The position numbers were made by a program, and so were the translations under genes. A DNA stretch of 64,000 nucleotides. It comes from Natronomonas sp. CBA1123. Its GTDB lineage: Archaea > Halobacteriota > Halobacteria > Halobacteriales > Haloarculaceae. The stretch is taken from NCBI RefSeq assembly GCF_009741925.1, contig NZ_WPCC01000014.1, positions 1 through 64,000 of the forward strand. Direction: 5' to 3'. The notes beneath the pieces were generated by a model. The model did no database searches, was not told the origin of the DNA, and saw only the letters and a list, made by a program, of their open reading frames with translations. Below, in pieces: positions 13,406-49,185 of the stretch (positions within the stretch are counted from its first letter, which is position 1; each line of letters opens with the position of its first letter).

Positions 13406-14017
13406 ATGAACACGCCGAAAGACCTCTCGTCGTACGTTCGGGTGCTCAAACTCGCGAGCACGCCGTCGTGGGACGAGTTCTCGAAGGTGTCCACCATCGC
13501 CGGCATCGGCATCCTGCTCGTGGGCTTCATCGGCTTCGCCATCTTCGCGATTATGACGTTCGTTCCCGGAGCCCTGATGTCGTCGGTTTACGCAGTCAAG
13601 ACCACCGCGAGCCAGGAGCGGACGGTCGCTGACATGATTATCAGCCGCGAGGAGCCCGATATCCACGCCGCCCTCGCGCCGGACTCGCTGACCAGCTACG
13701 TGATGGTCGAAGCCGACGGACCGGCTGCCATCGAGCGAGCACTCGAAGACATTCCTCACGCCCGCAATCTGGTCCCCGGCGAATCCTCGATTACCGAGGT
13801 CGAACACTTCCTGAGCCCGAAGCCGGACGTCGAAGGCATCGCGGAAGGCGACATCGTCGAACTCATCGCCGGCCCGTTCAAAGGCGAGAAAGCACAGGTC
13901 CAGCGCATCGACGAGGGGAAAGACCAGGTCACCGTCGAACTGTACGAGGCGACGGTTCCGATTCCGGTCACGGTCCGCGGCGACCAGATTCGCGTTCTCG
14001 ACAGCGAAGAGCGGTAA
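13406..14017 (+). CDS. secE-spt5: SecE (Sec61 gamma) fused in frame to Spt5/NusG
   Basis: The frame encodes 203 residues made of two normally separate proteins. Residues 1-57 are SecE, the single-helix translocon subunit ([20 protein letters not shown], then a membrane helix at ~30-54 ending TFVPGAL). Residues 58-203 are a complete Spt5. At 13571-13579 the DNA reads GCCCTGATG. Removing one C of the CCC run would give GCC-TGA, ending SecE with a stop overlapping the spt5 ATG (TGATG), the expected layout. A genuine fusion or a one-base insertion in the consensus are both possible. Confidence 0.75.
13577..14017 (+). CDS. spt5: Transcription elongation factor Spt5 (NusG homologue)
   Basis: Read from its own ATG 13577, this is a 146-residue archaeal Spt5. 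The NGN domain ([18 protein letters not shown] to VEHFL) binds the RNA polymerase clamp and a C-terminal KOW domain follows ([19 protein letters not shown]). With Spt4 it raises processivity. Nothing is missing, so it would work independently if translation starts at 13577. It is open to SecE in the same frame (see the fusion entry). Its stop is followed within five bases by the inserted tnpB element. Confidence 0.88.
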
Positions 14018-23823: not shown

Positions 23824-23982
23824 ATGGACCGAGGGACGCTACTGAGAATCGGCGGTCTCGTGGTCGGCTTCTTCCTGCTCGGACAGGCAGCGCGTGCCGT
23901 CGCCGACGGAGAACTCGTCCTCGCCGCCCTCGGGGCCGTCATCGGCATCGCCGTCCTCTTGACGGCGTTTCAACTCGACTAA
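23824..23982 (+). CDS. Tiny two-helix membrane protein
   Basis: This 52-residue protein (MDRGTLLRIGGLVVGFFLLG start) has two predicted membrane helices with AVADGELVLAALG between them. The overall layout resembles the preceding 56-residue protein, so the pair may be ancient duplicates or partners. It ends overlapping the convergent get3-like gene by four bases. Function unknown. Confidence 0.6.
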   Translation: MDRGTLLRIGGLVVGFFLLGQAARAVADGELVLAALGAVIGIAVLLTAFQLD

Positions 23983-25069
23983 TCGAGACAGGAACCGACG
24001 ACGCCCAACATCGCCTCGCCCTGCACCGCCTCGGCGAACAGCGGCACTCGTTTCACGTCCCGCCCACGGAACAGTTCCTGTGCCCGCTGGAGTGCCGACC
24101 GCTGGACCTCCCAGCGCCGCCGACAGAACTCACAGTGTTCGGTGTCCGGTGCGACGAACCACTCCTCGTCGAAGCCCGCGACGTCGGTCAGGTCCTCGCT
24201 CACGCGGTTGACGACGACGGTGCCGACGGGAATCCCGAACCCCTCCAGGCGGTCGATGAGCCGTTCGCTCTCGACGACGCTCATCTCCTCGGGCACCATC
24301 ACGACCCGGAAGTCGGTCCGTGAGGGGTCCCGAAGCGCGGTCCGGAGGCGCTCGATTTTCGACGACAACTCCCGTAAATCGTCGACGCCCTCTTCCATAT
24401 CCTCGTCGCTCCCGCCGCCGAACAGTCCACCGAGGCTGCCCGCCATCCCCGACAGTTTCTCCCGGAAGGCGAGCAGCCGTCCGACCATCGAATCCATCAC
24501 GTCCGGGAGTTCGAGCAGCCGCAGGGTGTGTCCCGTCGGCGCCGTGTCCACGACGACCCGGTCGAATCGCGGGTCGTCGAGATATTCAAGGAGTAGTTGC
24601 ATCGCCGCCGCCTCGTCGGCGCCCGGCATCGCACCGCCGGCCAGCGGATGGTCGCCGCCGCCGAGCATCCCTTCGAGACCACCGAGACCGCCCATCGCGC
24701 CGTCCGTGCCGCCGGCACCGCCGGCGTCGAACTCAGCGTCGGCCTGACCTTCTTTGTCGGTGACGAACGGCCCTTCAGAGGCCGCTTCGGGGTCGATTTC
24801 GACCGCGTACAGCGGTATGTCGTCTTTGATTCGCGTCGGCTCCGAGCCGATGTCGACGTTCAGCGTGTCCGAAAGCGAGTGGGCCGGGTCCGTCGAGACC
24901 ACCAGCGTCGCCGTCCCGTCGCGGGCGCTGGCCAGCCCCGTCGCCGCCGCACAGGTGGTCTTGCCGACGCCGCCTTTCCCGCCGTAGAGGACGTATCCGG
25001 GGCGTCGACGCCGACCGGTAACTCGGATTCGTCGACCGACTCGACCGGCTCGACGCTGAGTTCGCTCAT
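23979..25069 (-). pseudogene. Get3/ArsA-family ATPase broken by a one-base deletion
   Basis: The locus encodes a ~363-residue TRC40/Get3/ArsA-type ATPase if one missing base is restored. It begins at ATG 25069 (MSELSVEPVESVDESELPVG) and reaches VDAP at 24998. After two extra bases (24997-24996) the family sequence YVLYGGKGGVGKTT continues in another frame from 24995. The deviant Walker A, STDPAHSLSDTL, VVVDTAPTGHTLRLLELP and a late CEFC pair are all intact. No start codon in the second frame would include the P-loop. It is either a recent pseudogene or a sequence error. Confidence 0.8.
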
Positions 25070-25164
25070 ACCGCCGGTCGGCACTCGTCGCTTGTGTACC
25101 CGTCGATACTAGGGACGTGTGTTGTTGTGTGAACCGAGCGTGGGAACGAGAACAACACGACCAC

Positions 25165-43036: not shown

Positions 43037-43134
43037 ACCCGCGAGTGGGGCGGCCGACCCTTTAAGTCCCACTTTTCGACTCGCCCACGGAACGAGCCGT
43101 CCAGTGGTCGGTCACAACCCGGGCGGCCGTCCGT

Positions 43135-46681: not shown

Positions 46682-49185
46682 TCAGTCCGCTGCGACGCCG
46701 GCGTTGGCCTGGGCCTGCCACTCCCGAACCCGGTCGGCGGAGACGCCCTGTACCTCTCCCGCGACGACCTCGGCGTCGGCACCCCGGAGGTCCTCCAGCG
46801 ACTCGATGCCCGCTTCGGCGAGTTTTGCGGCGGTCTTCTCGCCGATTCCGTCGAGGTCCTCGACGGCCGACACCGCCTGTCGCTCCTGATACTCCTCGAA
46901 GTTGCAGATGGGACAGCCCAACTCCCAGGGGTCGTCGTCGTCCTCGCCGTCGACGATGTGGAGATGCGGCAGGCCGTGTTCCTCACACTGTTCGTCGGTG
47001 ACGACGATGTCGCCACGCCGGGGCAGCGGCAACGAGTACTCACACTCCGGATACCGGGTACACCCCACGAGGCGGGACCCCGAGCGGAGTTGCTTGATGG
47101 CGAGTTCGCCGCCGTGTTCCTCGCCACACTCGGGACACGGACCGATTATCTCGTCGTCGGCTTCCTCGGCTTCCTCGGCCTTACACCGCGGACAGCCGTG
47201 GACGAACGTGTTGCGACCGGCGAGCATCTTCACGTGACGGAGGTCGTGTTCCTCACAGCGTTCGTCGAGGACGGTCGGCTCGCCCTGGCTCGGCAGCGGG
47301 AGGGTGTAGCGACACTCCGGGAAGCCGTCACAGCCGACGAAGTACGACCCCCGACGGGACCGCCGAACCAGGAGGTCCTCACCGCACTCCGGACACGGCC
47401 CGAGCGTCCGGTCGGCCTTCATCGACTCCCGGAGGTGTTCGCCGATTTCCTCCCGGGAGTCGTGGAGTTCCTCGAAAATCGTCGCCAGCATCTCGCGGGA
47501 TTCGGCGGTCACCTCGTCGTAGTTCTTCTCGCCCTCGGCGATGGCCCGCATGTCGTCTTCGAGTTGGGCGGTCATCTCCTCGTCGACGATGCGGTCGGCG
47601 AACTCCTCGGCGGCCTCGACGACGGCCATCGCGAGTTTGGTCGGTCGTGGTGGGTCGCCCTCGATGTAACCGCGGTCGTACAGTTTCTGGAGGGTGTTGT
47701 GGCGGGTGGCTTTCGTCCCCAAGCCGAGGCCCTCCATCGTCTCGATGAGCCGCGACTGGCCGCGACGGCGGGGCGGTTGGGTCTGTTTGGCCTCGATGCG
47801 AGCGTCCTCGATGTCGAGAACTTCGCCCTCCTCGACGTCGGGGACGTAGTTCTCGCTCGTCGAGCCGTAGGGGTACACCTCGTGGTAGCCGGCCTCGACG
47901 AGGCGCTTGCCGTTGGCCTTCAGCAGACAGCCGTTGGCGTCGGCGACGACCTTGAGATGTTCCCATTCGGCGGCGTCGGCAACGGTTGCGAAGAACCGTC
48001 GGACGACGAGCTCGTACACGTCCCACTCGTCGTCCGAGAGGTCCTGCTTTCCGGGAATCTCGCCGGTCGGATGGATGGGCGGGTGGTCGGTCGTCTCCTC
48101 GTCGCCCGCCGTCGGTTCGATGTCGCCGGCATCGAGCAGCGACTGGGCGTCCTCCGAGAAGGGATGGTGGCCGACGAACGACTCCAGGAGGTCGGAAGGC
48201 TCGAGGTCGTCGGGGTAGACGGTGTTGTCCGTCCGCGGATAAGTGATGTAGCCGGCGGTGTACAGTTCCTCGGCGACGCTCATCGCCTTCTGGGCGGAGA
48301 GGCCGATAGAGCCGGCGGCACGGATGTACTGAGTGGTGTTGAACGGCTCGGGCGGGTCGTCGCTGCGGCGGCGGCGGTTGACCGACTCGACGATGGCCTC
48401 CCGCGCCCCCTGCAGTTGCTCGAAGGCCGCCTCGGCGTCGCTTTCGTCCCAGACGCGCTCGTTTTCGGTGCCGTCCTCTCGGTAGAAATACTGGGCTTCG
48501 AAGCGTTCCTCGCTCTTCAGGAGGTCGGCGAACAGCTCCCAGTAGTCGTCGGGGTCGAACGCCTGAATCTCGCGTTCGCGGTCGACGATGAGTTTCAGCG
48601 TCGGCGACTGCACCCGGCCGACGGAGATGAAGTCCTCGCCCAACTGCTTGGCCGAAAGCGAGAGGAATCGAGTGAGTGCGGCGCCCCACAGTAGGTCGAC
48701 GACCTGTCGGGCCTCCCCCGCGGCCGCGAGGTCGAAATCGAGGTCGTCGGGGTCGGCGAAGGCGCTTTTCACCTCGTTTTCGGTAATCGAGGAGAACCGG
48801 ACCCGGGAGATGGGCACGTCGGCGACCTCCTCGATGAGTTCGTAGGCCTCCTTGCCGATGAGTTCGCCCTCACGGTCGTAGTCAGTGGCGATGACCGCTT
48901 CGTCGCACTCCTCGGCCAGCGATTGCAGCGTCCGGACGATGTTCTCCTGTGTCGGCGTCTTGACCACGTCGCGTCGACCAACTCCGCCGGTTGAACGTCA
49001 CGCCAGTCGGCGTACTCGGCGGGGAAGTCGACGCCGACGACGTGGCCGGAGAGGCCGACACAGCGCTTGTCGCCCCAGCGATAGACGTTGACGCCGTTTC
49101 GGCGCTCGGCGGACGCGCCGCCGTCGGAGAGGATGTCGGCGATACGCCGTGCGGCGTTGTCCTTTTCGGTGACGATGAGTTCCAC
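46682..49185 (-). pseudogene. topA: DNA topoisomerase I, broken by a one-base deletion
   Basis: The locus encodes a ~834-residue type IA topoisomerase if one base is restored. It starts at GTG 49185 (ELIVTEKDNAARRIADILSD) and reads GLSGHVVGVDFPAEYADWRD up to GCG at 48970. The family sequence VVKTPTQENIVRTLQ then continues from 48967 in another frame, as if GCGGACGTG had become GCGACGTG. All else is intact: TOPRIM DYDREGELIG, catalytic Tyr in GYITYPRTDNT, several C-terminal zinc ribbons (CPECGE), and a terminal HhH (GIGEKTAAKLAEAGI). Either a sequencing error or real loss. Confidence 0.85.

Follow-up and report, generated by a model that had tools for sequence, protein, structure and literature searches.

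A one-base gap in topA of a Natronomonas draft genome, most likely a consensus error

The draft genome of Natronomonas sp. CBA1123, whose nearest named relative is N. gomsonensis YCN60, comprises 89 contigs (3.45 Mb). In this draft, the gene for topoisomerase I is split between two reading frames. Does this isolate carry a truly broken topA, is the break bypassed during translation, or is an intact gene misrepresented in the deposited sequence? The window analysed here is the whole stretch of DNA made up of the first 64,000 nucleotides of contig NZ_WPCC01000014.1, and all positions in it are counted from its first letter.

The topA locus and the site of the break

topA lies on the minus strand, from a GTG at 49185 to a stop at 46682, and is divided by one missing base into the following parts:

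48970..49185, minus strand: first 72 codons of topA in the normal frame, with the GTG start and the N-terminal TOPRIM strand with its Glu
48970..48972, minus strand: site lacking one base that every aligned relative has
46682..48969, minus strand: remainder of topA in the other frame, with the rest of Toprim, Topoisom_bac, Zn ribbons and helix-hairpin-helix
48769..48969, minus strand: out-of-frame tail after codon 72, in which the predicted product ends at 138 aa

The minus-strand frames bear out the reading given in an earlier note on this DNA: the 72 codons from GTG 49185 specify a normal topoisomerase I N-terminus, ending with GAG TTG GTC GAC GCG (the last of these at 48972-48970), and the rest of the protein is found in another frame, from GTG 48967 (VVKTPTQENIV) to the stop at 46682, i.e., 761 codons. 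In the starting frame, GCG is followed by ACG TGG TCA, homology is gone past codon 72, and a stop is reached at 48769, after 138 aa. Aligned to the N. gomsonensis protein, frame -2 covers residues 1-72 with 100% identity, and frame -1 covers residues 73-834 with 98%; the two parts meet at 48970 with 0 residues lost relative to this protein, and exactly one base is thus missing. Adding one base does join them exactly, as the earlier note had proposed, although the G that it restored is one of several equivalent spellings of the gap. The nearest relatives have an alanine codon GCC before GAC where the window has GCG, and this last codon is thus itself a product of the missing base. The gap lies outside any long homopolymer, and Tandem Repeats Finder detected no local repeat on which slippage might have occurred.

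The gene is an ordinary single-copy haloarchaeal topA, encoding a type IA topoisomerase. Residues 76-487 of the long frame match the Topoisom_bac core (PF01131, E 6.4e-127), and its translation contains YITYPRTDN, the active-site Tyr region. It is the same gene, with the same GTG start and domain order, as haloarchaeal topA (NF005555, PRK07220) and its N. gomsonensis YCN60 counterpart (L032/L004), from which it differs by one base fewer at codon 72/73. The TOPRIM domain is not complete in any one reading frame: the 138-aa frame matches positions 1-83 of NCBIfam NF005555 and encodes the first TOPRIM part, with the N-terminal Glu of the catalytic site, while the long frame holds only Pfam Toprim positions 39/41-96. 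The loss of this strand and its Glu, which had been anticipated for a real break, thus agrees with the domain matches; the catalytic Glu would be missing from the long product, which is predicted to be inactive. This topA is the only Topoisom_bac gene in the 89 contigs, and no second type IA topoisomerase copy was found in the draft.

The site in relatives and the age of the break

Aligning the site with topA of close relatives, the check suggested in the earlier note, showed the extra base in all 28 relatives aligned, and the one-base gap in the window alone (1/29 nucleotide sequences). The base and an open frame are present in both of the closest genomes, G009 and that of N. gomsonensis (G015; 98% protein identity). 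Of 89 topA loci examined, 85 have one uninterrupted frame; besides that of the window, three are broken, all at other positions: near the C terminus (L030), at about residue 421 in a contig-end MAG (L085), and at residue 168 (L073).

The last of these, the topA gene of Halolamina pelagica CDK2 (L073:2770-5279), is probably another draft error. Several haloarchaeal topA genes contain an in-frame insert near residue 425; those of L077:3001-6876 and L080:3001-6909 carry LAGLIDADG and intein-splicing domains, and topA inteins have already been listed (PMC4071816). Split topA matches are also present in G013, G029, G031, and G035.

Both halves of the window gene are still under strong purifying selection. 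Compared with G015, dN is 0.013 and dS 0.207; 3' of the break, dN/dS is ~0.06 against G015 and ~0.05 against G009. The first 72 codons show only synonymous differences from G015, with 0 amino-acid changes, and the ratio of nonsynonymous to synonymous codon changes is 5:24 on the window lineage, against 11:64 on the G015 lineage. As neither half has drifted, the break is either absent from the organism or very young. The decay of an old pseudogene, another type IA enzyme having taken over its function, has the broken frame in its favour and nothing else; it is contradicted by dN/dS and by the unchanged first 72 codons, and the genome holds no second type IA enzyme. This explanation was therefore rejected on dN/dS, and its probability is next to nil.

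Translational recoding, with ribosomes shifting by -1 at the site to make full-length TopA, would account for the exact abutment of the two frames, as such a shift would yield a protein of normal length, and -1 frameshifting has been reported for haloarchaeal viruses (PMC5009743). However, all aligned relatives read straight through, so that the two-frame arrangement is not conserved, the site (C GAC GCG ACG) is not an X XXY YYZ slippery heptamer, no stop adjoins it, and the 81 nt downstream fold less stably than shuffled sequences (z +1.9). With slippery heptamer, conservation, and stimulatory structure all absent, a programmed -1 frameshift in topA was rejected as very improbable.

Other one-base breaks in the draft

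The comparison with the corresponding parts of G015 and G009 covered this contig in full (69 kb) and, from three others, ~120 kb; the 69-kb contig was additionally compared with G018 and G001. Besides topA, three conserved genes with one-base breaks were found in the ~190 kb sampled, all intact in relatives. One of these lies in the window:

23979..25070, minus strand: ArsA/GET3-type ATPase (PF02374), one base lost near 24996, just before the P-loop

This ATPase gene has one base fewer than that of N. gomsonensis, is 98% identical after the break, and is in one frame in G018 and G001. The two others, a Na_sulph_symp permease gene (contig C1, near 19350; L118) and a DUF5781 gene (contig C2, near 12887; L121), have one more C and one more base, respectively, in a C run, which breaks the frame. 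Inspection of the corresponding parts of the N. gomsonensis assembly gave no confirmed counterpart breaks, and that of G009 at most one or two. Extrapolated to the entire draft, the four breaks in ~190 kb probably mean tens of such breaks.

Frame switches near 43108, 20700, and 66637, among others, were not counted: they concern long open frames for which a convincing homologue is lacking and which look like spurious or non-coding stretches. At 13406-14017 of the window, secE and spt5 are fused in one 203-aa open frame. In G015 and G018 the secE stop overlaps the spt5 start, and in the window two small length changes (net +1) abolish the secE stop, leaving spt5 intact.

Consensus error or recent mutation

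Intact relatives, purifying selection on both halves, and the other breaks in the draft uphold the earlier preference for an error or a very recent mutation over old decay. Between these two, a scattered sequencing or assembly consensus error is the probable explanation, favoured because the scattered one-base breaks sit in genes under selection: the deposited topA consensus would lack one base at 48970-48972, the gene itself being intact in the living organism. The topA gap resembles known frame breaks of this origin, in which otherwise conserved genes are each interrupted by a solitary one-base indel, with several cases per genome; it differs from them in that its site is not a long homopolymer, and it is known here from the consensus sequence alone. 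Reference-based detection of frame breaks is available in Kastor (PMC12007338), and frame transitions have been surveyed (PMC3711429). Against a consensus error, the topA gap is outside the long homopolymers where such errors most often fall, the breaks are few, at four in ~190 kb, and genuine pseudogenes of recent origin would look identical.

Less likely is a genuine loss-of-function mutation of very recent date, possibly tolerated, which the isolate carries in all or only some of its many chromosome copies. The products would be an N-terminal fragment of 138 aa and perhaps, from the internal GTG, a C-terminal protein of 761 aa that is inactive, and the cell would get by on gyrase and Topo VI, the latter presumably present, going by the haloarchaeal pattern. 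In favour of such a mutation, one clean event accounts for the break, gyrB is intact in this genome, and a mixed state could be sheltered by the many genome copies that haloarchaea can carry (~20 per cell in H. volcanii; PMC7776575). The argument that topoisomerase I should matter for growth proves weaker than it had been made: deletion of topA (Topo III) in Sulfolobus islandicus gives viable, slow-growing cells (PMC8185306), so that essentiality alone is insufficient to prove an error. In Haloferax volcanii, gyrase and Topo VI are reported to be essential and the status of TopoIA is not settled (PMC7776575); none of the papers found in our literature search tests directly whether a haloarchaeon tolerates deletion of topA. 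However, topA was found, in single copy, in 40/40 relatives searched, relaxed selection is not seen in the window gene, and a general cause is suggested by the draft's further one-base breaks.

The topA gap is thus most likely an error and not a real biological feature, in which case the matter is one of annotation only, since the topA of this genome would be listed as a pseudogene in error. It is rather improbable that this Natronomonas isolate lives with no active type IA topoisomerase, which would show the enzyme to be dispensable in a haloarchaeon with gyrase and Topo VI. Were the break real, survival would hinge on these two enzymes, and the isolate would offer a natural test of the need for type IA topoisomerase in haloarchaea.
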